DNA of 64,000 nt from Cladochytrium replicatum (lineage: Eukaryota > Chytridiomycota > Chytridiomycetes > Cladochytriales > Cladochytriaceae), in contig JAHLKD010000082.1 of NCBI GenBank assembly GCA_025526935.1, forward strand, positions 62,001 to 126,000, written 5' to 3'. Positions 42,041 to 64,000 of this stretch are shown piece after piece. The notes below the pieces were generated by a model. It was given only the letters and a program-made list of their open reading frames with translations. It was not told the DNA's origin and ran no database searches. The translations under genes and the position numbers were made by a program. The number at the start of each line of letters is the position of its first letter. The stretch's first letter is position 1.

Positions 42041-42533
42041 AAATCCCAAAAATTGGACTGGATGGTTCGTTTATGTAGTTTATATATGGAGTGATTTGCC
42101 TTCTGGTTCTGATGTCGTTCTTTTTTTTCTTCTTCAAATTGCATACAACGCTGTTCTCCATACAAGCCCCAAACCTCATTCCCTTTCGTTCTATGGCAGT
42201 AGCAACGGTTAATAGAGATGTTGTTGTGCTTGAATCCACCACCATCAAAATTTACAATATTTTAATATTTTTGTATTGATTTATTGGTACGGCAGCCCAG
42301 CCGTCCAATCATTTCCCATAGACGCCACCTCGAACCCTCAACGAACAACAAACCCACACTCGAAAAATAGAGTCGCTGCTCTGCTGAGTGGTACCGCTCC
42401 GTGGCAGAACTACCACTCAACTTAATACTTAACCGGGTAATTTCATCGCTCGTTTCTGTTAGCTCTCACCGGCTCATTCTTTCAACCCGCACGAAAAACT
42501 AGCGGGACGCAATAGTGGGTGTATGTACCCAGG
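42041..42533. other. Intergenic, nothing recognised
   Basis: Contains a T-rich tract near 42120-42135 and otherwise plain sequence; presumed terminator and promoter region. Confidence 0.4.
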
Positions 42534-45251
42534 ATGATAGAGTTATCCAGCATTGAAATGATACTAAATACGAACGATGCCTTATTACCCGCCTCTGCAA
42601 CAACCATAACGAAGTCTGCTGCAACAATGAAGGACCTAACACTTCGAAACAACTCCAGAAGGAAGGTGCCGCCGGGTATGTTTCGAAGCGCGGCGGTTAT
42701 CACCGTTATCATCTCGGTGGCGTTGAGCGTAATAGGCGTAGAAGCGCAGAACTTGAATCCGTTCAACGGGGCTCTTTTCGGTGTCGGCCCCGTTGCGATC
42801 ACAAAGTCGAGCGATTCGAGCCGTCCGTTTGCGGTCGACGGGAACACGTTCGACCAATTCAGCGGTGCGTGTGACCGCGCCTGCGATAACCAAAAAAACA
42901 ACTGTGCGAACAAAGTCAACAGCACCCCGTCGCTGAAAGGACGGGTGCCGGAGTGCGACAATCAGAACAACCAGTGCAAATCTGCGTGTTCGTCTGGACC
43001 GAGGCAGGATAACCCTCCGCAGCAGAGCCCGGTGGCTCGGACGTCGGCGGTGGTTCGCACTTCCGCTGCGCGTAGATCGCCGTCACCTTCGCCATCGCCC
43101 AGTCCGTCGCCCAGTCCCTCGCCCAGTCCTGAACCGTCGCCTCCACCTGAAGAAGAGTCTCCTATTTTCAGAGCGTCACCCATTATCATTCGCACTTCTC
43201 CAGCACGGCAAATTATTCTCACGGAGAATAATCCTGTTCAGACTTCTGCGGCTGCTACTCAGGACAACAACAATGGTGGACAGACCGGCGAAGCCGGCAA
43301 CAGTCCAACTGAAACGACTACCAGCCAACCTGGTGCGACCACAGTCATTGGAGGAATTCCAGTTGATTCGCAGCCAACTGAAGCTGGATCGACGACTTCT
43401 CGAAAGTCTGCCGCAACGGGAGTAGTCCACAAGGACAAAAATGTGGATGGAAATTCTGCCGACACAACTTCAGCACCGAATGTCATAGGGGACGAAGGAG
43501 GCAACACCCAAATTGCCGGTGGACCCAATCTGTTGGTGATCGTCTTGCCAGTCCTTGGCGGCGTGGTTCTGTTGATCGTCATCGTAGTATCGATTTTCTG
43601 CGTGTTCCGCTGCCGCAGAAATTTGGAGAAGGAATCGCTTTCTTGGCCGAGCCGTGAGAGGAAGGAAGGAGGAGGTGGGTGGGTGTCTCTTGAGGACGAG
43701 TCTTCTATTCAGTCCTCCTGGCCCTCGGCCTCCAGACCAAGAGGGTTCTTCTCCATGGTGAGGAGTAAAGTACGCGGGGTGGCAAATATAGGCGGATCGG
43801 ATCGCAAAGGATACGAGGGACGCCAGCCTTTTCTAGCAAAGTTTGGAATATTTGGAAAGAAAGATGCACATGACGATACGTCATCGGAACGCGGCTCAGG
43901 GCTGCTAGGCCCGTTCTTTACGGCTGATGAAGAACGTGGACAGCAGGGATCGACGGTCTCGTCGACCCCATCGCCCCCGTCCGAGCCTGAAATGGCACAT
44001 GTGCATGATCGGTCGGCAATTCTTGGTTCGGAGCACCAGAAGAAGACAAAGGCACCTGCGCGACCGTCCGTCGTTTCTCAGCTAGACTCGTCGAACGTGA
44101 ACAGTGCAATCGTTCACGACCTTATCGTTCTGGACACCCCCGACCAAGCGGGTATTTTGAACCAGGAGGACATTGGATCTGTTCCAGTTGGGAGCTACAC
44201 TTTGGAGCCCTTCGATTCTCCTATCAGCAGGGCAGCAGGCGTTCCAAATCGGCAGTCAGTCAACACTGTACCTTCACGGATGCCGAGCCAGCTGATTACC
44301 AGTAAACCAAGTCCTGCGATCTCCAACAAATCCCCAAAGTTTGCACAGAACCAACACAGCTCACCCAAAACACCGACGCAACAGTACACACCGCAGCAGC
44401 TGCCGGCCCAGCCCGTTGTCAAATTGACGTCGACTAACTCTGTATACACCACCGCGCTTCTCCCCAACACATCTTCAGACGAGCAGGCTCGGCAGCAGTC
44501 CTTCCTGTCGCCGTACACCGCATCGACGGAAGACGAGATGGACATTGTGCGGGGCGTGGTCGACAAGATTGGCGGCGGCTTCCATCCGCCCAACATCCCA
44601 CTCTACCGGGACTCGATCCTGTCCTCGGACGAAAGCAGCGAATCCGACGGCTCGCGCTCCGCAGCGCTCCAGAGCTTGCTCCCGCCAACCCACTGGGCCG
44701 TGACGCTCCTCAAAACCGGTGAGCTTCAGCAACCGATGTCTCCAGCCAGCGCAAGGTCGTCGGGGATACCCATGGACCTAGTCCTATCACCCGGCGGCCC
44801 GCGCCCCACGCGCTCGACGTCAAAGAAGCTCAGCCGCGCGCTGTCGAGCTCCGACGACTCTTCTGACGGACGGCTGTCGACGCTCAGCCAGAGCACGACC
44901 GCATCGGCGATGTACAGGGTCCTGATCTCGCGCGAGGACTCGAGGAACAGGGCGTCGGTTCCGAACCCGCATAAGGGTGGGAGGGTCCCTGGGTCGGAGG
45001 AGGAGAGTGGATCGGGTGGGGGCTCGAGCGTGTCTGGGGAGGAGTTTGTAGTTGTGGCGGATTACAGTGCGCAACAGGAGGATGAGATTGATTTGGTGTT
45101 TGGGGAGGTGGTGTCTGTTGAGGTGGTGTTTGACGATGGGTTTGCGTGGGTGAGGACGACGGTGGATGCGGATGGCGGGGTGGAGAGGAGGGGGATGGTG
45201 CCGGTGGATTGCTTGGAACCTGCTAGAGGTTCTTCGTCTGGGTCGGGGTAA
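42534..45251 (+). CDS. Single-pass membrane protein with Cys-rich ectodomain and C-terminal SH3
   Basis: Intronless, up to 905 residues. The first ATG is 42534; the ATGs at 42627 and 42678 give a cleaner signal peptide (FRSAAVITVIISVALSVIGVEA), so the true start may be there. The secreted part has a small six-Cys region (ACDRACDNQKNNCANK; PECDNQNNQCKSAC) and a Ser-Pro repeat stalk (SPSPSPSPSPSP), then Ser/Thr-rich sequence. One membrane helix at about residues 330-355 (LLVIVLPVLGGVVLLIVIVV) is followed by Cys and Arg. The long cytoplasmic tail is Ser/Pro-rich and ends in an SH3 domain (VVADYSAQQEDEIDLVFGEV; GMVPVDCLEPA). The architecture recalls fungal wall-stress sensors coupled to SH3 signalling; the role is inferred. 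Confidence 0.8.
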   Translation: MIELSSIEMILNTNDALLPASATTITKSAATMKDLTLRNNSRRKVPPGMFRSAAVITVIISVALSVIGVEAQNLNPFNGALFGVGPVAITKSSDSSRPFAVDGNTFDQFSGACDRACDNQKNNCANKVNSTPSLKGRVPECDNQNNQCKSACSSGPRQDNPPQQSPVARTSAVVRTSAARRSPSPSPSPSPSPSPSPSPEPSPPPEEESPIFRASPIIIRTSPARQIILTENNPVQTSAAATQDNNNGGQTGEAGNSPTETTTSQPGATTVIGGIPVDSQPTEAGSTTSRKSAATGVVHKDKNVDGNSADTTSAPNVIGDEGGNTQIAGGPNLLVIVLPVLGGVVLLIVIVVSIFCVFRCRRNLEKESLSWPSRERKEGGGGWVSLEDESSIQSSWPSASRPRGFFSMVRSKVRGVANIGGSDRKGYEGRQPFLAKFGIFGKKDAHDDTSSERGSGLLGPFFTADEERGQQGSTVSSTPSPPSEPEMAHVHDRSAILGSEHQKKTKAPARPSVVSQLDSSNVNSAIVHDLIVLDTPDQAGILNQEDIGSVPVGSYTLEPFDSPISRAAGVPNRQSVNTVPSRMPSQLITSKPSPAISNKSPKFAQNQHSSPKTPTQQYTPQQLPAQPVVKLTSTNSVYTTALLPNTSSDEQARQQSFLSPYTASTEDEMDIVRGVVDKIGGGFHPPNIPLYRDSILSSDESSESDGSRSAALQSLLPPTHWAVTLLKTGELQQPMSPASARSSGIPMDLVLSPGGPRPTRSTSKKLSRALSSSDDSSDGRLSTLSQSTTASAMYRVLISREDSRNRASVPNPHKGGRVPGSEEESGSGGGSSVSGEEFVVVADYSAQQEDEIDLVFGEVVSVEVVFDDGFAWVRTTVDADGGVERRGMVPVDCLEPARGSSSGSG

Positions 45252-50619: not shown

Positions 50620-52871
50620 ATGTCGTTGATCAAAGGAGAGAGATCTGGTGCTGCACCATCTTTGATGAATCGCACATCCATCATTATGACAGAGTGTGTG
50701 CCGTACAAACAGATCGGGAAAGAAGACCCTGACACCACAAGTTCTGCCACCACCTCCATGGTTGTCAATGAGAGTGCAAAGTACACTCAGATCGATATGG
50801 AAGACCCTGATACAATCACCCCTGAAAATTTCCCGTCTATCTATTCTGAGGATGCAGGTTATCTTCCCTACTCTATTATATTATCGAACAAGAATCTGAT
50901 CTGATTTATGTTCATATTTCCCACACAGACACGCATGTGAACTGCCACGCGACTGAGTCTATGGGTGTCGCGTCGATCAAACCTCAGAACACCATGCATC
51001 AGAGCTCTTCGGTGACAATAGGGCGACAGAGCGCACCCCGTCTGCCACGAAGAGTCCGCAGGCCTTTCCTTCTGTTCAGGTTCCCAAGAATCCGTCTGCC
51101 GCAGCCTCGCTCGGATACGTGCCGCCAAAATGATGCAAAGCACGGATTCACCGACCTCGTCTTAGCATTCTGCATCTCGCGGTGCGCTATGATCCTCCGT
51201 CTCCGACGCGACGGTGTTGGGATCCGCGACTTTTGCCACTTCCTTCTCGTCTTTGCGCCGACGTGGATGACATGGTGCACCGCGTTTGTCGACCATGATC
51301 AGCACTTCGGTGGGATCTCGGGAATCTCGACCTCGCTATCCGATGGCAATGGTTCTATGGCCACGATGGCGGAAATTGATAAGCTGGCATCGGAGGACGA
51401 TTTGTTTGGATATGTGATGTATGGATTTCGTTTGTGCCTTGCGCTCGCGATGGGGTGGACCGCACCGCAGGCATTTAATACATCCGTTGCGACGCGGACG
51501 GGAACGGTTTTCGTGATCTTTCTTGTACTGATTCGGATCACGACCGTCGCATGTGGGCCAGCGGCCGCGGCGGTGGGAGTTATTGTTCGCAAGTCAAGGC
51601 GGAAGAGCAGCACTGAGACTGTTGCGGTTCATGATGTGGAGCTCGAGGAACAGTGGACGCGACATGTTCTGCTACGTTCATTCTTCGAGGTCGTGATCCC
51701 GACGGGGTTCTTTGTAGTGAGCTTGATCACTGGACGGCTGTACATGGAGCTATTGTGGGGGACAGGAGCGGCCCTGGAGCAGGTCATGCCGATTGTGTTT
51801 GTTGGGGCTCAGTACGGCGTGACTCGTTTCCGTGCGGAGAAAGATGCTCAGGCAGGACCGGTTGAAAGTTCAGGCGAGGTGCATTCTTGCGCTTTGCTTC
51901 CGTGGCAGACGTCGCAGATAGCGGAACGGTTACAGTCACTGAATTCGAATCTGCTGGTCGCAACACTTTTTGGATTTGCTGGGGTGTTCCCGATACACCC
52001 TGCGTATATCTATGGAGACGGACTCATGCCTTTTGATGTACTTAGCTTTTTGGTCGGAGCGGCTGGGCTTGTTTGTGCTCTTGCATTCCAGCGCATCTGT
52101 CGAAACTCGTCGCATAATTCTGGAAACGTTTGTCATGGGCAGAGAGTTCGGATGAAGTTGGATGCAGCGGAAAGGGGACTGGATGAGAAGGAGCTTCAAG
52201 AGTATCTGGAGATGACGAGAGAGACGACAGTTGATAGCAGACACACGGGGACAAGCTTGGATGTTGCAGCGATGAATCTGTCCTCATCCATCTGGCGGCA
52301 GCTCCATGTGCTCCTGCACGTTTTCATGTTGATAGCCATAGTGTCTCTCAATTCAACTGCTCAAGATTACTATACGTCGCAGTACTTCCCCACTATCCCA
52401 ACTGCACCTCAAGGACTTCCAGGTTCCACTGGCCCAAGCGGAGCAGGAACAAACACTCAACAAGATAGCGAGCTTCTATCATTCCTACTCATGGATTCAA
52501 AAACTTCTGGTCTCGGATTCAACAACCTGATCTCACCGCCGCACTTCATGATGGCATCTACAGCTGTGTTTCTACTTCTCTCGGGCTTTGTCGCTGTTCT
52601 CAACCCGGAGCTCTCTCGATCGATGAGTCCGATGTGTGCGTTTCATCGATCTGAGTCCCGCATTCGGCTTGGATCTCGTGCTGTGCTGGGACTCGGGGTT
52701 GTGGTTGCAGCACTTGTGATACGGATTAAGCTCGGCGTGGGAGAATTTGAGGGTGTTGCGGCGATTGGGGTAACGGTCGGCACAATGAGTTTGTTGTCAA
52801 TCTATGAAGAGGGACTGCGCATATGGTCAGGACAGACTCGTCTGCTCGAGGTGAATACTCGGCATGGCTAA
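50620..52871 (+). CDS. Polytopic membrane protein, possibly LtrA-like
   Basis: Two exons. The first (MSLIKGERSGAAPS...IYSEDAG) is soluble and joins through a 62 nt intron to DTHVNCHATESMG and then the long membrane part ending at 52871. About ten hydrophobic helices are visible, such as FCHFLLVFAPTWMTW, GTVFVIFLVLIRITTVACGP, SFFEVVIPTGFFVVSLITGR and MMASTAVFLLLSGFVAVLNP. The opening FTDLVLAFCISR followed by FLLVFAPTWMTWCTAFVDHD resembles the start of low-temperature-requirement A (LtrA) proteins (FFDLxFVxxI...W). The match is partial, so the family call is tentative. Function unknown. Confidence 0.55.
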
Positions 52872-53058: not shown

Positions 53059-55297
53059 ATGGCCGTTGAAATCGATGGGGTCACGTTTGAGGTGCTTGAC
53101 CTGTTTGCATTCGCTTGCGTCGGACTCGCGTTCGTGCTCACAGTCGGGAGGCTATTGCTGCACACTATTATGTCCACAATCGGAAAGGACAAAACGGTTT
53201 ACCACAATTCAATCACGATAGCGTTGAGGTCTGTTACGATGCTGCTCCAGCACCTTGATACTGATGTTTTGTCTCAACAATAAAGTGCTATCATCGTCTC
53301 CCAAGTGTCCGGTGTCATTTTCAGAGTGAACCAGCTGAGAACTGAGCAGGCTCTCAACTACAATGTCACTCCAGAAGACATCCCTCTTATCACAAAAGTT
53401 ACGGGGGGAATCTCGGTGGTTTCGAGTGTTGTTGCAGGACTTGCTTTCGGAATCACTACGTTGAACCGCTTCAAACCTTTCGCTGATGGATTCGGCTTTT
53501 ACCGTCACACCAACACTATTTTAATGGTGCTTCTCTTTTTACTCGGGGCAACTTCTTGTGTTGGAATGTGTTTGTTTGTCCTCGAGTACAGGAATCGTTT
53601 TGTTACCGTCACGAACTCTCTATTCTGGGTTGTGAGTGCTTAAGGGTATCGAATCTTTTGATTACAGCTAATCTTCTCGTCCTTTTCAGTACACTGTATT
53701 TTTCGATATGTTTGTAATGTTCGCGATGGTGTGGGCCACAGTCGCAAAGAAACGTGTCATCTTTCTCAGTAGCCATGGTCAACAGTCTGATCCGAACAGC
53801 AATGACTCTTCGAACACGAGAAGAAGAAAGCGGCCCAACCAGTGTCTGAAAGTGCTTCAGGTTCTATTGCCAACACTCAAGAGAAGCGATCGGTCATTGA
53901 TTTCCTTGCTGGTTTTGATAATCTTCCTCGATCTGCTCGCTCTCCTTTGTTACGTTGGGGCAGCATTCTTTCGCAAAGGCTTTGTTGCCATACAGATGTT
54001 CAACGCCAACGGCATTATTGCTTTCTACATGCTTGTAGCAATCGAGTTCCTTTCCCAGTTCCGCAATGTGTTGAAATTAGAAGGGAGGAGGAGACAGAAA
54101 GAGGAACGAAGTGGAACGAAGCTTGAAGACGGGACAGTGCAGCTTACCTCGTACTTCAACACGTTGGATCAACCTAACAGGTGCGAAATTGTGGTTGGGG
54201 AAGACGCACCTCGTGCTGGTTCAAGTGGAGCTCGATCTCAACCCTTTGATTATTCAAGAGGTGGGGGGTCAGGCTCGGGAGCTCATCTCAATAGAGCACC
54301 TATACATCGGCAAACCAGTTATGGATCGTTGGGTGCACAAACAAATCAGTTCGGATATGCAGAATCAGGATCTGGTCGTCCACTTCAATACCTCAGCAGA
54401 GCAGTGACCCAGCAAAACAGCAACGGGTCGTTACGCAGTGCGCAGGGAAACCAGTTCGGACAATCTGAGCCGGTAACTCATCCTGCACCGTTTACTCAGC
54501 CAGGTTCAGCGCCTGTGACGTGGCAATGGACAGGAGCGCGAGATGGGGGTGGATCGCACTGCATCATGTTCTCGGCATCGATTCAGTTCGTCGCTAGTCG
54601 TTCTGATGAGTTGGATTTACGACTGGGTGACACGATCCAATGCACCCGCACTTTTCCGGACGGATGGGCGCTTGGAGTGAATCTAAGGACCGGAAAGGCT
54701 GGGATGTTTCCCTTGAACTCAGTTGCAGTCGTTGAGAAGCCTCTGAATCCGTTTCCGCCAATGCAATCTTCCTCTTCGAGTTACTCCCAAGATACCACCG
54801 ATCAATCACAGCAGCACCTACCACCTCCACCAATATCACCGGAGATTTTTCCATCTCCCGCCAACTCTCAGCGCGATCGCAAGGAACCTATCCGGGTAGT
54901 CACAGCCGCCCCACCAGAGCGTCCATACGCCGCGCCCATAACTCCAGTCTCCACCTCCATCTCCGCGACGATTCCTACCAACATCGTTGCCGGAGCAGAG
55001 GTGCAGGTGAAGCAAATTATACCCCAACCCGCCGCTGTGGTTCCCGAAGTGCCAAGTGCTGGGCCTAGCGGCCGACCAATACGGATCTACGATTCGGCTG
55101 CTGCAACTGCCATTCGAGCGTTCGATCCTGCGTATCCAGACGAGTTGAAGCTGAGGCTTGGAGATCGATTGACTGTCGCTGCCGAGTACGATGATGGTTT
55201 TGCGTACGGTGCAAACTTATCGGCCGGAGGTACTCGAGGCATGTTCCCTCTCTCCTATTGTGAGTGGACAAAGGATCCGCGAATAGTTGGTGCATGA
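53059..55297 (+). CDS. 7TM-SH3 protein, paralog 1 (two SH3 domains)
   Basis: Exons 53059-53228 (170 nt), 53286-53631 (346 nt) and 53690-55297 give 707 residues. Seven hydrophobic helices: LDLFAFACVGLAFVLTVGRL, IIVSQVSGVIF, SVVSSVVAGLAFGITTL, LMVLLFLLGATSCVGMCLFV, FFDMFVMFAMVWATVA, LISLLVLIIFLDLLALLCYV and IIAFYMLVAIEFLSQF. The loop after helix 3 is NRFKPFADGFGFYRHT. A Ser/Gln-rich tail then carries SH3-1 (about 465-525; SDELDLRLGDTIQCTRTFPD, GWALG, GMFPLNSV) and SH3-2 (about 640-705; PDELKLRLGDRLTVAAEYDD, GFAYG, GMFPLSYC). With odd helix number and cytosolic SH3 domains, the N-terminus should face outside. First member of a five-gene array. Confidence 0.82.
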
Positions 55298-55504
55298 TTC
55301 TATGTCTTCGTTGTCCTCCGCAACTCAATTCCCCTGCCTTTCTTGAGAATGATAGGCTGGCTTTCTGAGCATTGTGTGCACATAGAATTTTGTTAATAGT
55401 TTGTTAGGCTTTTTGGATGGGAGATATAAAGCATGCTTGCTCATAACTCCATTGGCCCTAAAATTTTCATCAGTGGCTTTCGCTTTGGTTTCAATGCCAA
55501 CTCA

Positions 55505-57301
55505 ATGACTGTGGTGGTTATCAGCAATGCCAACTTGGAGGTCATCGACACCGTAGCTGTGGTGTTTGTCCTCGTCGCATTCGTACTTTGCTCTTTCCGT
55601 CTCATTCTTCACATATCCTCAAACGAGGGACGTGAAAAGAGTGTTTTCCATAATTCAATCACTGCTGCATTGGGGTAGGCTTGCCAGCGGAAAATCTCGA
55701 ATCGGTTTCTTACTGCTCTTGAATACAGCTTCGTAATAGCGTCACAATTCACTGGTGTTATCTTCATGATTAACCGACTGAGGACGGTGCAGATGTATAA
55801 CTTTAATGTTACTCCGGACGATGTTTTACCTGTCACAAAGATTTATGGTTGCCTTTCCAACCTTTTTGGAGTGCTCGCTGGTCTTTCGTTCTCAATCACG
55901 ACTTTGAATCGATTTCAGCCGTTCGCTGATGGGTTCGGGTTCCATCGTCATGTCACTACTGGGCTAATGGTGTCACTCGTCGCTCTCGCTATGGTCTCGA
56001 TTGTTGGAGGATCTCTCGCTGTCCAGGAAATCGGTTACCGTTACGTGACCATTCTGACTTCTCTATTTTGGGGTGTAAGTTGTCCCACTGTATTCCCAGC
56101 GTCGTCATTTTCTAATTCTGCTTGACAGGTTGCTGTTATTTTCGACCTCGTTGTAATGATTGCGATGGTCTGGGCAACGGTCGCCAAAAAGCGGGTCATC
56201 TTTGTCGGAGAGCAAATTGAGCAGCGATCCGGTAGAGAAACGCGATTAAGTAATCCCAAAGGAGTCCTCGATATCATGCGACTGTTTGTTCCGACTCTAC
56301 GACGAAGTAACCGCACTCTCGTCGGCCTTCTCCTTCTCATAATTCTCCTGGATTTGCTCGCTCTCGTTTGCTATATCTCTCAGGCGTTCTATCGCGAGGC
56401 AGTCGTGGCCATCTCGACATTCAGCTCGTATGCGCTGTTTGCGTTCTATCTTTTCGTTGCGATCGAGTTTGTTTCTCAGTTCCGGAACGTTCTGAAGCTG
56501 GAAGGGAAGCTGAAGAGGAAAGAGGCCGCTATAGGGACGAACATTGAGGATGGGACGCTGCAGTTATCAACGCAGTTCAAATCTTTTGATGTGTCGTACT
56601 CTGGTGACGATGAGCATGATGACGCAGCTGGGCCAAGCGGGATTCAACTTCGTAGTATGAGCAGACCAAGAGCGGCATCCGCCGATTCTGGAGCGTGTGT
56701 AAGCGACGGTTCTGCGTCTGATGCCCATACAAGCGATCCATCGAATCGAAATATTTCAACAATCCAGTTTGAAAGAGCTGAAGAGGAACAGGTTTCGCCT
56801 CTGCGTTCTTCAATTGCACGTGCAATCCCTGATAGTGAAGGTGATGATGGAAGATCGCACGTTCATCCCATCAATTTCGCTGTTTCTGTGCCCTTCCAAT
56901 CTACACGAGCGGATGAGTTGGATTTACGTATCGGGGACGGCATTAGATGCACACGAACTTTTGCCGATGGTTGGGGTTACGGAGAGAATGTGAACACCCG
57001 GCAAAAGGGGATGTTTCCTCTCAATTCGGTGTCAGTAGTGGAGAAGCAAGGGCTTCACGGTGATGTTGATGCAGTCTCAACCCAGCAAGTCATTGGTATC
57101 GGGGAACAAAGAGCGATTCAACCAACGCACACTTCATCACAACCAATACTTGATCCTCCAGACCCTCTCGACACAAGCGTAAAGGATGCGTCTCCACCAC
57201 CGGCTGATTACGCTGCTCCAATGTTACCGATCTATTCTATGCCGCTCACAACGGAATCGGACCAACTATCCCAGCCATCAAAAGCTGTACGTGATCAATA
57301 G
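55505..57301 (+). CDS. 7TM-SH3 protein, paralog 2 (one SH3 domain)
   Basis: Exons 55505-55674 (170 nt), 55729-56074 (346 nt) and 56129-57301 give 562 residues. Start MTVVVISNANLEVIDTVAVV chosen by match to paralogs 1 and 5; an upstream in-frame ATG at 55433 would add 24 residues. The seven helices and the NRFQPFADGFGFHRH loop match paralog 1, as do FDLVVMIAMVWATVAKKRVI and VPTLRRSNRTL. One SH3 near 420-480 (ADELDLRIGDGIRCTRTFAD, GWGYG, GMFPLNSV). The tail continues to the AAPMLPIYSMPL linker that leads to SH3-2 in paralogs 1 and 4, then stops, and no second SH3 is found downstream. Confidence 0.82.
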
Positions 57302-57531
57302 CCCCGATCCCGCTTGTGCCCGTTGGATGAAGTATATGTGGACTTTCTGGCTATTCTGGTGCGTAAGTTGAATAATTCTTCCTGACAGTAATCGGCTTGA
57401 AGACCCGGTCCCCGCTGAGGTCGAGATTCCACACATAGACATTGTAAATGGCACGGTTCTTGTTAAGCTGCACCTTGTATTTTATAAAGTGTGACAAATT
57501 TTTTGTTCCGTCATCCGTAACACGCAGGTGG

Positions 57532-59009
57532 ATGGCGACCGCCGCTGAGACCGACCGGCTGAACGCACTGGTCTTAGCGGCCTTAGTGAGCGTAGAGGCT
57601 GGATTCGTTCTATGCTTTGGACGCCTCATTCTACATGTCCCGTAGCCAAGACAACATTCGCGAAAAGAATCTGTTTCACAATTCAATCACTGCAGCTTTG
57701 AGGTGAGTCGGAGAAAGAACTTGCTGTTGCAAATTAACAACCGATAATTTAATAGTTTCGTAATTGCCTCTCAAGTAGCTGGCGTTGGATTCGCACTTAC
57801 TCAATTCAAGACAGAACTGCAGAGCAACTTCAATGTTAAACCTGCCGATGTTCAAGCGGTGACAAAGGTCTTCGGCTGCTTAAAAGCAATAGCAGAAATG
57901 TGCGCCGGGATCGCATTCGGGATAACGACTTTGAATCGGTTTCAACCGTTTGCCGATGGATTTGGTCTCTATAAGCATACCACAAGCTTTTTGATGGTGG
58001 TACTCCTCGTTCTTGCCGCAGTGTCAACCATGGGATCATGCTTGGCTGTTTTTGCTTACAGAAGTCCAGTGGTGATGATTGTGGGCTCCCTGTTTTGGGC
58101 AGTAAGGACAAAATAATCACAGCGTGCACATGTTATACTTACAATTACGCCAGTACTCAATAATTTTCGACCTCGTGGTGATGATTGCAATGGTGTGGGC
58201 GACGGTTGCAAATAAGCGTGTCATTGTTCAAAGCAGCCGACCCTCGGAGGTAAATAACTCAGATTCTGACGACCAAGGTGAACCCAGATCATCCAGCACG
58301 CTACTCCGAGGCATTCGTACTACGTTTAGACGCAGCAATCGTACACTCTTACTCCTACTTGCACTTATCGTTGCACTTGACTTGCTTGCACTTCTTTGTT
58401 TCGTCTGCGAAGCAGCCTTTCCTCGAGAATATTTGCCGATTTCGATGGTTAGCTCTCATACATTGGTGGCCTTCTACCTCATAGCGGCCATTGAGTTCCT
58501 ATCGCAGTTTCGCAACGTCCTCAGGCTGGATGCAAGGAAGAAAAGGATTCAGCTTGGAACAACCACCAACTCTAACGGCGGGACAGCCCAACTCACTACG
58601 CAGTTCAACTCTTTCGCGACGTCATCTACTGGAGAGAGGGGTCCACGGGAAACAGACATTTGAGAACAATCCGCGCGATTCTCTCGATTCGCCCGTAAAT
58701 TTGACACAATCACCAGTGGTATCGCTGAGGCATCCGCCGGAGAGCGAGGATAACATTGCTATCGAGAGTCTCCCGTACCTCCAACCCTTTGAAACAGCAG
58801 ACGAAGGAAGATTGCTTGCACATCCAATTACATTCGTTGCATCAGCTCCCTTTCTTGCCACAAGGCCAGAAGAAGTTGATGTTCGCACCGGAGACCGAGT
58901 TCAATGCTCCCGTACCTTGGAAACTGGTTGGGGTTATGGGGAAAACTTGACCGCTGGAAGAAGAGGACTGTTTCCACTCAATTCGATGTCGGTGGTGGAG
59001 AAATCATGA
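57532..59009 (+). pseudogene. 7TM-SH3 protein, paralog 3 (frameshifted, one SH3)
   Basis: All elements of the family are present: start MATAAETDRLNALVLAALVS, exon 2 at 57756-58101 of exactly 346 nt, NRFQPFADGFGLYKHTT, FDLVVMIAMVWATVANKRVI, RRSNRTLLLLLALIVALDLL, and one SH3 (PEEVDVRTGDRVQCSRTLET, GWGYG, GLFPLNSM, stop after VVEKS). Exon 1 is 171 nt rather than 170 + 3n, and its frame ends in a TAG at HVP-stop near 57643 while the family motif FHNSITAAL continues in another frame. A second shift occurs near 58640 after TSSTGERG. Either a young pseudogene or two sequence errors. Confidence 0.7.
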
Positions 59010-60132
59010 TCCTCAAATACGATCAGCCAATGGAGCACAATTATTCTTCGGGATATTGCCGTTAAGCAGCCGGATACAGAGACGCTAAACGCAAATCTTT
59101 GCGGGGCATTCTTTGTGAATCACCACCCAAAGCGCACCTTTGGATCCCAGGGTTTTATAGGGCGACAAAGTTCGTTGGAGCAGCCGAAGCTACAGTGACT
59201 AATCCGTCAATGCGAACTTGAGTTTACCCTTCTTCATCAAAGACAGATCCCACCTACATGGGATTGGCGATCAGCAGTTGACGATTGCAAGCATACGTGA
59301 TTAGTACTATGAAACCTCATTGTTTTCTGGGACAATGTGTTTCTCGTAGAGTTTGCTCTGAAAGCACTTCTGTCGTCGTGAAATTCAGACGAACAGTGTG
59401 ATCTGTTCGATGCATCTGTCAACCGCATCGAGGAATCTAGTCGGGCGGTTTGAGCACTATGTTCAACAAAGATATGATCAGATGGCCAGAAAGTTATGCC
59501 CGCAATCTCTTGATTTTACGTCCACAAATTAAATGCTCAGCTCTCGGTTTTACCTCGTGCAGCCTCAGACTTAGATCATCACGCTCGATCGCCAGACTTA
59601 AAGAAAGCACGAAAAAATTAGAACCATCAAGTTAAACAGTTACTCAGGTAGGCTTCAAAAAGTGGTGCAGCTGAACGATGAGTTGTTGATGCTAGATAGT
59701 CGCCTACCACTAAGCATAATATTCATCTGCCTTGATTGCAAAAATTTAATGGGGATTTAAAAAAGCCTTCTCTATTAGTATAGAGTGGCAGATGAGTTTC
59801 AACAGATGTTTACTTAGTTTCGTTGCTAATTTGTTTTTATTTGTTCACAAACTTTCCAGACAAAGGCAGTAAATGTGTCGATTGACAGTATTTCAACAAT
59901 TCCAACAATTCCGTGGAATAAAATATGTCTCTAACAGGATCAAAACTGGTGTTAAGCTGGGAGTGCATATTTCATATTTAACGTTCAGAAGAATTCGAAA
60001 CGGCTCTCATTAAATCGATTACATACAGCTAATATCCAGCTCCACCACCATGTTTTTAATTTGTGACATTTGGTGGCACGGTGAAATATATGGCCACAAA
60101 AAATTTGTTTGAGCCCTATTGAAGCCTTTGAC
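59010..60132. other. 1.1 kb spacer inside the array
   Basis: AT-rich, without recognisable coding sequence. Searched by eye for a second SH3 of paralog 3 and none found. The largest gap between members of the array. Confidence 0.45.
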
Positions 60133-62136
60133 ATGATCAACACCAAACAATCGCTGCTCCCCGCAGCACAGCTGAGTGTTCTTGATTTGCTTGCTTTAGC
60201 GAGCGTTGGGGTTGGATTCGTACTGTGCTGCGGCAGACTACTTACGCACATCTCCAGCAGAGATGATGCTCATAAAAGGAGTTTGTTCCACAATTCAATC
60301 ACGGCATCGCTGAGGTATGTTTCGACAAGAAAGAGCAAGCAAACAGCTTATTTCAACAAAAATTCTAGTTTCGTAATCATCTCCCAAATACTGGGGGTCA
60401 TCTTCGCACTCACCCAACTCAAGACGGAGCGACAACTCGGTGTCAATGTTACACCAGACGATGTTGAAACAGTTACAAAAGTATATGGTAGTCTCAAAGT
60501 CATGTTTGAGATGTTTGCCGGAATCGCATTCGGCATTACCACTTTGAATCGATTTCAACCGTTCGCCGACGGATTTGGCCTTTACAAGCATACCACAGCC
60601 ATTCTCATGGTGATCCTCGTCGTACTCGCAGTCATTTCTGCAATAGGAGCATTCTTTACCGTTCTTGCATACCGAAGTGTTGTCGTGACACTCACGAGCG
60701 CTCTATTTTGGGTTGTAAGTTGAATGCAACAAAAACTTTGTCAGAGCACACTCAAGACAACGTCTCAGTTTACAGTTTTTTTCGATCTCATCGTAATGAT
60801 TTTCATGCTTTATGTGACAGTTGCAAAGAAGAAAACCATAGTTCAAATCGATCAATCACCTGAGACACTCTCAACCGGGGGAAGGGGAAACCAGTCCATC
60901 TTTATTCTTCGAAGGTTTTGCTCACTGGCACCAACGCTAAGACGCAGCAATCGCACTCTCATCATGCTGCTAATCGTCATTGTTGCCCTTGATTTGCTCG
61001 CGCTCTTTTGTTTCCTCTGCGAATTGGTTTATCGTCAACTTTATTTAGCGATTTCGATGTTCAGCTCTAACGCACTGGTGGCATTCTACCTCGTAGTTGC
61101 CATTGAGTACCTTTCACAATTCCGCAACGTGTTGAGGATAGAGGCAAAGAAGAACCGGATAGGAACGAACACGAGTGGCGCGAATGACGGAACTGGACAA
61201 CCTACTACGCAGTTTAATTCTTTTGAGGAACCTTATGTTGAGGACGCGGAGGCTGGGGGTACGACTGGCGCTGGGGCCATTGGGGCGGACCCTCGTTCCA
61301 CGAGCGAAGTTGACGTCTCTTCGGAATCAAATTCAGGGGCGATTCAAAGCCAACAAGTTCGGCCGGGATTTGTGAGATACGGCCCTACCGGTCTTGCCGA
61401 GAATGCGGATAACAGTTCTGTTCTACCCCAGCCTGAAGCGCTTCAGGGAGAAGAGGAGGGGAGGTTGCTCGCGCAACCAATTATGTTCGCTGCGTCCACT
61501 CCCTTTGCTGCCACGCGGCAGGAAGAAGTAGATATACGAATCGGAGATAAAGTGAGGTGCTTTCGCACGTTTGAGACTGGTTGGGGTTACGGGGAGAACG
61601 TGAACTCTGGAAGAAGTGGAATGTTTCCTCTCGATTCGGTATCAGTTGTTGAGAAACAGTTGTCTCCTGTCGATCAACTTAACGATGATGGGGATGCTGC
61701 ACTAGCGCCACTCTACGAAACAGGACAAATTGTAGTCAACGACACCAAGACCAATCATAAAGAGCCCGTTTCTTCTTCTCCTCGTATCTACACCGCCCCG
61801 TTGTTCCCAGTGCAGCCAACATCGTACAATATTACGTTGGCTAGTTCAGATCAGGAGTCCGAGCTAATACCCAAATTTGTTGAATCGCGCGACCCCCCGA
61901 TTAATCGGACGAGTGGTACACCAATTCGGATGTTCGACACTGCCCCAGCAACCGTGATCAAGTCATACGAGCCCTCTCGCTCAGATGAAATTAGGTTACA
62001 GATTGGAGATCACTTAGCGGTTGCTGTGGAATATGACGACGGTTTTGCATTCGGTGCCAACTTATCGGATGGAAATTCACGAGGCATTTTCCCACTGTTT
62101 TGTTGCGAGTGGGATAGCCCCCAAGGAAATTCGTAA
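60133..62136 (+). CDS. 7TM-SH3 protein, paralog 4 (two SH3 domains)
   Basis: Exons 60133-60314 (182 nt), 60369-60714 (346 nt) and 60769-62136 give 631 residues. Start MINTKQSLLPAAQLSVLDLL. Helices include LDLLALASVGVGFVLCCGRL, VIISQILGVIFALTQL, FEMFAGIAFGITTL, LMVILVVLAVISAIGAFFTV, VFFDLIVMIFMLYVTVA, LIMLLIVIVALDLLALFCFL and LVAFYLVVAIEYLSQF. Loop NRFQPFADGFGLYKHTT is conserved. SH3-1 is at about 414-475 (QEEVDIRIGDKVRCFRTFET, GWGYG, GMFPLDSV) and SH3-2 at about 566-628 (SDEIRLQIGDHLAVAVEYDD, GFAFG, GIFPLFCC). The segment after helix 5 is KKKTIVQ rather than the KKRVI of the others. Confidence 0.84.
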
Positions 62137-62619
62137 ATTCAACATTATGGTTCTCCACTATGTAGAAGGCTTTCTCTGTTTTGCAATGTGCAAATGTACA
62201 AGCTCTCTATGATATTGTAACATTAATTCTTCATCTCTCAGCGTGGGCCTCACGCTTCGACTCGTGGATGGGCTGGTTGGTCAATATTAGCAGTCCTCGA
62301 AATCGCCAACTGTCCCATGGTTTGGTTGCTGTGAAATATATTTATGATGAAGCTACTGGATCGATTCAAGTTGTTTGGATCGAGATCGGGTAAGGCAAGA
62401 ATACACGTCCCTTAGCTGGCTGCCGTTGAGTGTGAGCAGAACAACGAACAAATGTTTGCTGTTTACGTCAGCGAGAAAAACCGCCGGTGCCACCCCAAAC
62501 GGCCTGCACCCGCCGTTCCGAGCAGCAGAAGAAAAATTTGGTGGGCAAATCAATTTTCATTGGTCGTTTCGAGTTGCTATTAAGAATGGGCGTAACTTTC
62601 CTCGGCCTTTGGAGAAAAG
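62137..62619. other. Spacer and presumed promoter of paralog 5
   Basis: No coding sequence recognised. Confidence 0.4.
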
Positions 62620-64000
62620 ATGGCTGTTCTCATTGTTGGAGATACCCCTCTTGAGCCTATTGACGTGGTCGCTTTCTTGACTGTTGTGGTTGCATTCATC
62701 CTGTGCGTTGCAAGGTTAATCCTTCATCTGCATTCATCGATAGCCAGCTCCAAATCGCCATATCATATTTCCGTCACCTTGTCCTTGAGGTATGCTGTAC
62801 GCAGAATTCTTCCCTTGGTAATGAAGTTGATTGGCTTGATAATTAGTGCGTGTATTGCTTCGCAGATCACCGGGACGATCTTCAGATACTACCAGCGAGG
62901 AACTCAAATTCGCTACGAATATCGTATCACTCCAGAAAACGTTCTTTTGGTCACCAAGATATGTGGGTGTCTATCAGTGATATTTGCGACTGTTTCCGGG
63001 ATGGCGTTCGGTTTCACGACACTGAATCGCTTTAAACCATTCGCGGATGGATTTGGATTTCATCCTCGCACCACATCCGTTTTGCTGGGAGTTCAATTGC
63101 TCCTCACATTTACATCCATCATCGGTGGGTGCGTTTTTGTTTTGGAGTATCGAAACATCGTTGTAACAGTTACAAATATTCTCTTCTGGGCAGTGAGTGT
63201 GTTCCAACTTTTCCTATCTCGTGGGGAAACTGATCTTCGTTTTGTTCCAGTACACTGCCATTTTCGATCTGGTTGTGATGGTAGCGATGGTTTGGGCCAC
63301 AGTTGCAAAGAAGCGGGTCATCTTTCAGTCGAATCAAGAAACACAATCACATGGCTCAAGGGAGATCCACAGGAACGATGCGAAACGAGAAGACCGCCCC
63401 TTAACTTTAATCAGAGTGCTTGGAATTCTTCTTCCAACAATCAAACGGAGTGATCGGTCTCTGGTAGCTTTGCTTGCGGTTATCTTGTTTCTTGATTTGG
63501 TCTCCGTCCTGGGCTATGTCGGAGCAGCGGTCTATCGTCCAGGGTTTATTGCGATTCTATATTTCAATACCAACGCACTCTTAGGGTTCTACATCCTCGT
63601 GGCTTTCGAATTCTTGGCACAATTTCGCAACGTTCTCGGTCTTGAAGGAAAGCGCAGAGATGGCGCGACACAGGAGGACGATGGAACTGTAGAACTGACA
63701 TCCCACTGGGGTGCTACAGTAGATACATTTCGTGAGACCACACACGGGAACGATGGTGTTAGCGAGAATGATCATCAGACAGAAGAAGAAGTGAACCCCC
63801 AATTGAGTCTCTCAATCACGACGGACTTGCCGGCACGAGCTACAGTCCGATCTGATCCTCGACATTTCACTCCGGTATTACGGCAGCAGTCTGTGGTCTC
63901 CAACGTGATCCATGGTCAACAGAGAATGCAAAGTCATTCTAGTCATGCTTCATTGCGAAGCGAAACACCGAAAATTTCTCAAATTTTACCAAATCCTGCC
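62620..64000 (+). CDS. 7TM-SH3 protein, paralog 5 (cut by window end)
   Basis: Exons 62620-62789 (170 nt), 62847-63192 (346 nt) and 63251 onward, open to the window edge. Start MAVLIVGDTPLEPIDVVAFL. Seven helices again, with ISACIASQITGTIF, IFATVSGMAFGFTTL, LLGVQLLLTFTSIIGGCVFV, IFDLVVMVAMVWATVAKKRV, LVALLAVILFLDLVSVLGYV and LLGFYILVAFEFLAQF. The loop is NRFKPFADGFGFHPRTT and PTIKRSDRSL precedes helix 6, both closer to paralog 1 than to paralogs 3 and 4. The tail begins EDDGTVELTSHW as in paralog 1. The SH3 region would lie beyond 64000 and is not seen. Confidence 0.8.

Follow-up and report, generated by a model that had tools for sequence, protein, structure and literature searches.

The window analysed here is a stretch of 64,000 nucleotides (nt) from the chytrid Cladochytrium replicatum (Chytridiomycota, Cladochytriales; genome of 50.5 Mb in 198 contigs) and corresponds to positions 62001-126000 of contig C82, such that window coordinates equal C82 coordinates minus 62000. 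Between positions 53059 and 64000 it holds five paralogous genes (g1-g5), arranged in tandem on the forward (+) strand, which code for a membrane part of seven predicted transmembrane helices (7TM) followed by a long tail with one or two SH3 domains; this combination is new as far as the tools used here reach. We tentatively propose, with something short of even confidence, that these genes represent a chytrid family of cell-surface receptors or sensors, with the N-terminus outside and the C-terminus inside (N-out/C-in), whose non-canonical SH3 tails would act in scaffolding or self-association. Further members occur elsewhere in the genome. A second cluster, on contig C130 (locus L010), contains three copies: a homeolog of g1 (90% identical), a g2-like one that is truncated and a g3-like one whose frame changes within the linker (both breaks were read by eye from open frames), and distant members lie on C20, C28 and C2.

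Membrane topology and SH3 tails

Averaged over the alignment columns of ten family members, hydropathy rises to exactly seven peaks, and seven hydrophobic segments were found singly in five of the six proteins tested (g1, its homeolog, g2, g4 and g5). The sixth, the distant paralog P0006, scored six segments, owing to a weak helix 3, so that no topology can be read from its loop charges. In the five seven-segment proteins one face (loops 1-2, 3-4 and 5-6, together with the first 40 residues of the tail) carries 20-27 Lys and Arg residues, versus 5-7 on the other; this pattern, present in all five, supports a predicted N-out/C-in topology with the SH3 tail in the cytosol. An earlier note, made from the letters of the window, had proposed the same arrangement, and the odd number of helices that it implied is seen in the five proteins. 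The third inner loop is long and basic. A possible N-glycosylation sequon is present in outer loop 1 of five of the ten members (g1, g2, g4, the C130 g3-like copy and the C28 member), and among the charged residues of the helix cores only D253, in helix 6, is invariant.

Pfam comparison of the g1, g2, g4 and g5 proteins placed each over at least one SH3 cut-off; SH3 was the only family over cut-off in these four tails, and no catalytic accessory domain was found in them. The SH3 match of g3 is below the SH3_9 cut-off and in a different frame from its membrane part. The SH3 of P0006 is seen below cut-offs only. Nor is the domain always attached: none is detectable in the 7-kb locus of the C2 paralog, so that SH3 has been gained or lost within the family. 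Among the PDB matches listed, the first domain of g1 (SH3-A) is closest to vinexin (1.5e-9), whilst the second domain (SH3-B) is closest to JIP2 (1.6e-6) and JIP1.

The canonical PxxP groove is described as being formed by Y/F8, Y/F10, W36, P51, N53 and Y/F54 (PMC5823434). All nine SH3-A sequences retain the aromatic residue at 10, W36 and P51; N53 is present in five, an aromatic residue at 8 in a single sequence (the broken g3-like copy), and Y/F54 in none. The five SH3-B sequences (g1, homeolog, g4, g5 and C20) likewise retain the aromatic at 10 and P51; each has Arg or Lys at 8 in place of an aromatic, and Phe or Tyr in place of W36. N53 is absent from all five and Tyr54 is present in three. 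With these residues missing, canonical PxxP binding by either domain appears doubtful, above all by SH3-B. In six other membrane SH3 domains of the genome, Trp36 is retained throughout, one has an aromatic at 8 and none has Tyr/Phe54. The SH3-A changes are thus common to most other sampled membrane SH3 domains and are not special to the family; the loss of Trp from SH3-B, unlike these changes, is not general among the sampled domains, as far as their sequences tell.

Two further tail motifs recur. YxAPxxP is found in the linker between the SH3 positions (linker 2) in five of the seven tails scanned (g1, homeolog, g2, g4 and g5; not C20 or C28), and since g2 has the motif without an SH3-B domain, SH3-B in cis cannot be the motif's only partner. 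A juxtamembrane motif, T-x-[QE]-L-[ST]-[ST]-x-F, is strict in five of nine members (g1, homeolog, g2, g3 and C28) and looser in the other four, C20 having been left out.

For the membrane part, none of the Pfam matches passed a cut-off; the best of them, at chance level, was FA_desaturase (E 0.017 in g4), far under its threshold. No G protein-coupled receptor (GPCR) family was listed for the four proteins to E 1 or for six membrane parts to E 10, a listing in which filters drop most matches above 0.1. No PDB chain matched the membrane part, and the PDB matches of the whole protein fall in the SH3 regions (among the matches listed, 60 of 156). Protein searches returned five, seven and one proteins, none from another organism. 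This is weak evidence from an insensitive search: residues 84-200 of P0006 recovered P0006 alone and missed its relatives P0001-P0005, and C20 was in the query of the second search, yet no C20 protein was returned (possibly because it is unannotated). Absence of the family outside the species is thus not established. On viral and prokaryote contigs, none of 68 and none of 108 pattern matches respectively were confirmed, in line with a family of fungal origin. Profile comparison with five 7tm_3 and four Dicty_CAR frames of the same genome (one of the latter apparently misframed) gave nothing, and neither did the control pair of 7tm_3 versus Dicty_CAR; a second control, of tandem versus distant members with rows taken from one joint alignment, gave a probability of 100. 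Among the titles and abstract openings of open-licence papers, no 7TM-SH3 family was reported, and no paper under the name Cladochytrium replicatum concerned these genes by title; the word SH3 is absent from the main text of the fungal GPCR surveys PMC12842992 and PMC3251606. Within these databases and this literature, the earlier note's remark that no described family has this layout has held.

Conservation of the cytosolic side

Conservation within the membrane part was analysed in a tandem-type set of six members (g1-g5 and the C130 g3-like copy; g3 and the latter are broken genes). Inner loop 2 has an identity of 0.82, the segment that follows helix 7 one of 0.77, the cytosolic end of helix 5 one of 0.71 and the stretch leading into helix 6 one of 0.54, compared with 0.29-0.45 in the outer segments, 0.44-0.65 in the helices and 0.16 in the middle of inner loop 3. 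With the middle of loop 3 left out, the inside loops are better conserved than the outside loops, both in the tandem-type set (0.63 vs 0.38, p 1.3e-5) and in two divergent five-member sets (0.51 vs 0.35, p 0.003; 0.50 vs 0.33, p 0.001). In six of the seven helices of the tandem-type set, the better conserved half is the cytosolic one.

Helix 3 is followed by the conserved motif L[N/D]RFxPF and helix 7 by FR[N/D]VL; helix 5 ends in ATVxKKRV, and a more loosely conserved RSNRTL precedes helix 6. L[N/D]RF and FR[N/D]VL are present in all ten members, the former as LDRF in three distant paralogs and as LNRF in seven tandem-type members. We suggest that these conserved stretches at the cytosolic ends of helices 3, 5 and 7, and to a lesser degree of helix 6, may form a face that contacts a transducer.

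Strong purifying selection acts on both g1 and its homeolog, with a ratio of non-synonymous to synonymous substitution rates (dN/dS) of 0.066 overall at a synonymous divergence (dS) of 0.80. By region, dN/dS is 0.046 in the membrane part, 0.072 in linker 1, 0.054 in SH3-A, 0.178 in linker 2 and 0.029 in SH3-B. For g3 against its C130 copy, values of 0.09 in exon 2 and 0.16 in the exon-3 portion of the membrane part were obtained at dS of 2.3 and 1.5, which are near saturation.

Candidate functions and known systems

In the proposed receptor, a stimulus would shift the seven-helix bundle, and the conserved cytosolic face would relay this shift to a transducer, possibly a G protein. The long tail, with its one or two non-canonical SH3 domains, would function as a scaffold that binds partners lacking PxxP or self-associates, and would thereby keep partners at the receptor, loosely as Sho1 does with Pbs2. 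So considered, the family is best filed as a putative variant of the polytopic sensors with a cytosolic signalling tail. Should the fold prove receptor-like, it would provide a seven-helix receptor with a fused adaptor domain in a flagellated-fungus lineage, comparable in logic to the oomycete GPCR-bigrams with a binding module in place of the enzyme, and also a case of SH3 domains that are strongly selected after loss of the classical PxxP groove.

Several observations weigh against this proposal. A transporter, channel or enzyme fold would be likewise compatible with the sequences. Identity in inner loop 1 (0.41) does not exceed that in outer loops 1 and 2 (0.45 and 0.42), and helices 5 and 2 (0.65 and 0.59) score above the stretch before helix 6. 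When the middle of loop 3 is included, the gap between inside and outside loops is not significant in the tandem-type set (0.48 vs 0.38, p 0.09) or in the divergent sets (0.41 vs 0.35, p 0.21; 0.39 vs 0.33, p 0.15), and in the divergent set the cytosolic half is the better conserved in only one of seven helices. The loop and helix-half results together confine the conserved face to short stretches by helices 3, 5 and 7, rather than the whole inner side. Rhodopsin-class GPCRs carry D/ERY where helix 3 reaches the cytosol, CWxP within helix 6 and NPxxY within helix 7; a CWxP- or NPxxY-like motif is present in none of the ten members. In the tails, the groove changes of SH3-A are general among the sampled membrane SH3 domains of the genome, and the likeness of SH3-B to JIP is modest (31.5 bits), JIP2 having the Trp that SH3-B has lost.

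Somewhat unlikely, in our judgement, is a non-receptor role, in which the proteins would be cortical membrane scaffolds or transport proteins, with SH3 tails that link the membrane to actin or to proteins of cell polarity, the seven helices being incidental. This role would suit a genome with several kinds of SH3-tailed membrane protein, one of them a single-pass frame within the window. SH3_9 gave 118 matches in the genome scan, and of 12 SH3 loci sampled (L015-L026; chosen by likeness to the family SH3 domains, mostly the best non-family matches, and hence not random), ten have the SH3 in frame with a hydrophobic segment (L016 doubtfully) and two (L017 and L024) have it beside membrane frames. 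Such recurrence makes the SH3 tail a theme of this genome and points to its wider use on membrane proteins; what sets the present family apart is that the tail is joined to a seven-helix part with no family match. A non-receptor role is harder to reconcile with the position of the best conserved loops, at the cytosolic ends of helices, and D253, as the only invariant core charge, offers little for a transport path.

We also regard as unlikely that the family consists of highly diverged GPCRs, with G proteins as their main output and SH3 tails serving only for placement, clustering or turnover. LDRF of the three distant paralogs sits at the place of D/ERY, and FR[N/D]VL at that of helix 8; conservation at the inner ends of helices 3, 5 and 7, weaker at helix 6, and the long basic inner loop 3 would also fit, as would the G-alpha loci, of which at least nine were counted in the genome (two each on C62 and C99, and one each on C55, C59, C35, C27 and C12). 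As to receptor families, the genome gives 24 exon-wise matches to 7tm_3 (glutamate-type receptors), 23 of them over cut-off, six to Dicty_CAR and three to Git3, all over cut-off, and one to 7tm_1 below it. Against a GPCR descent stand the lack of CWxP and NPxxY and of any GPCR family among the Pfam matches listed or any matching PDB chain.

A separate class of 7TM receptor, in which signalling would run through the conserved helix ends and through SH3 domains no longer binding PxxP, SH3-B would self-associate in the manner of the JIP1 SH3 domain and so cluster the receptors, and SH3-A or YxAPxxP would dock a partner, is a decidedly long shot; known so far from one chytrid, it would, if true, be a 7TM receptor with a built-in adaptor. 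The earlier note's own model, in which the receptor would bypass G proteins, with canonical SH3 domains recruiting proline-rich ligands directly, now looks very improbable; the role in zoospore sensing that the note also raised is conjectural. Its cytosolic SH3 tails are real, and both SH3 types retain the groove Pro and the aromatic at 10, SH3-A also Trp36; however, the other groove losses described above (positions 8 and 54 in SH3-A, Trp36 and position 8 in SH3-B) weaken the case for proline-rich ligands, and the abundance of G-alpha genes, together with cytosolic helix ends resembling a transducer face, leaves the bypass without support. That the cluster is decaying and non-functional is scarcely credible: g3 and the C130 g2-like and g3-like copies are broken and a g1 fragment lies on C114, but g1, g2, g4 and g5 are open throughout, and its dN/dS rules out pseudogene status for g1, a status retained for those three broken copies.

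Among known systems, yeast Sho1 is described as an osmosensor with four transmembrane domains and a cytosolic SH3 domain that binds Pbs2 (PMC4411306). Compared by description, it shares with the present family a polytopic fungal membrane protein with a cytosolic SH3 for signalling, and differs in having four helices against seven peaks; no Sho1 was among the PDB matches listed. The accessory domains reported for oomycete GPCR-bigrams are catalytic (PIPK, AC, PDE, INPP and TKL; PMC6033456). The bigrams are alike in having an N-terminal 7TM part with a C-terminal intracellular signalling domain and in occurring in zoosporic organisms, and unlike in that this domain is catalytic in place of an SH3; the word SH3 is absent from the main text of PMC6033456. 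Fungal GPCR classes, as surveyed in PMC12842992 and PMC3251606, also have seven helices in an N-out/C-in arrangement, whereas the present family matched no Pfam GPCR family.

The SH3 domain of JIP1 is reported to be dimeric (PMC8866124). JIP2, which retains the Trp, is the best PDB sequence match of SH3-B. Both JIP1 and JIP2 are kinase scaffolds and not membrane receptors. Fus1 is a single-pass membrane protein whose SH3 target peptide, R[ST][ST]SL, is absent from the seven tails scanned. By description, it resembles the SH3 domains of the family in being a fungal SH3 with a deviating canonical groove, and its reported targets lack PxxP (PMC5823434).

Gene layout, duplicated loci and neighbouring frames

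The five genes are separated by spacers of 207, 230, 1123 and 483 nt. As the earlier note had seen, they share one gene structure: exon 2 measures 346 nt in every copy, and exon 1 measures 170 nt in three of them (g1, g2 and g5), 171 nt in g3 and 182 nt in g4. NCBI proteins P0001 and P0004 are identical, letter for letter, to the spliced g1 and g4 models, and P0003 to that of g5; P0005 (493 aa) is the final part of the g2 model and starts in exon 2. The named NCBI proteins of the family are annotated as hypothetical. The array of five is real, but not all copies are as first presented. The frame of g3 shifts near 57645 (exon 1) and near 58663 (exon 3), and its NCBI model, P0007, has 307 aa; either the gene is truly damaged or the changes stem from a sequencing error or, for the second break only, from an unrecognised linker intron. 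The end of g5 lies 816 nt past the window, and both its SH3 domains are outside it.

Table 1. Window coordinates of the array genes and their tail features (aa, amino acids).
Feature	Position	Strand	Details
g1	53059..55297	+	707 aa, BJ742DRAFT_777937; exons 53059-53228, 53286-53631, 53690-55297; 7TM + SH3-A + SH3-B
g1 SH3-A	54584..54724	+	PF14604 match C82:116584-116724, below that model's cut-off; SH3_1 over cut-off in g1
g1 linker motif YAAPITP	54926..54946	+	conserved; form YxAPxxP in g1, homeolog, g2, g4, g5
g1 SH3-B	55109..55258	+	PF14604 match C82:117109-117258, over cut-off
g2	55505..57301	+	562 aa; exons 55505-55674, 55729-56074, 56129-57301; 7TM + SH3-A only
g2 SH3-A	56888..57031	+	PF14604 match C82:118888-119031; SH3_1 over cut-off
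g3 (broken)	57532..59009	+	exon 1 57532-57702 (171 nt), exon 2 57756-58101, exon 3 from 58154
g3 SH3-A	58845..58982	+	out of frame with g3 membrane part
g4	60133..62136	+	631 aa, BJ742DRAFT_531569; exons 60133-60314, 60369-60714, 60769-62136; 7TM + SH3-A + SH3-B
g4 SH3-A	61492..61629	+	PF14604 match C82:123492-123629; SH3_1 over cut-off
g4 SH3-B	61954..62094	+	PF14604 match C82:123954-124094, over cut-off
g5	62620..64000, on to 64816 (C82:126816)	+	693 aa; exons 62620-62789, 62847-63192, 63251-64816

In the family tree g1 groups with its homeolog, and g3, its C130 copy and g4 fall together; the C2 member forms a long, unsure branch. C130 resembles an old homeologous block of C82. A recent allelic copy was ruled out by the dS of the g1 pair and by a flanking gene that matches in parts only, at 30-62% identity; these are better explained by an old duplication of a segment or of the genome. 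The g1 fragment on C114 (27784-27888) comprises 35 residues of exon 3 at 91% identity.

The sampled SH3 loci include single-pass surface-type proteins, cytochrome b561-like frames (L017 and L024, by eye) and multi-helix frames (L018 and L019). Near-copies lie on different contigs (L017/L024, L018/L019, L020/L022 and L021/L023), and such pairing suggests a wider duplication or a hybrid origin. Within the window, a 911-aa open frame at 42516-45251 (+) combines an outer part rich in Pro and Ser with a hydrophobic segment and, at the C-terminal end, an SH3 domain (assigned by eye and with our own SH3 profile, 36.8 bits); its product is likely a single-pass SH3-tailed protein, encoded some 8 kb upstream of the array.

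Downstream of g5 on C82 (L009) lies a 694-aa open frame, by eye a multi-helix protein; its 647 aa from the first Met gave no Pfam match. Adjoining the array upstream, at 50850-52871 (+), a 673-aa open frame matches no Pfam family over cut-off, has several hydrophobic stretches (by eye) and finds a fragmented match on C130.

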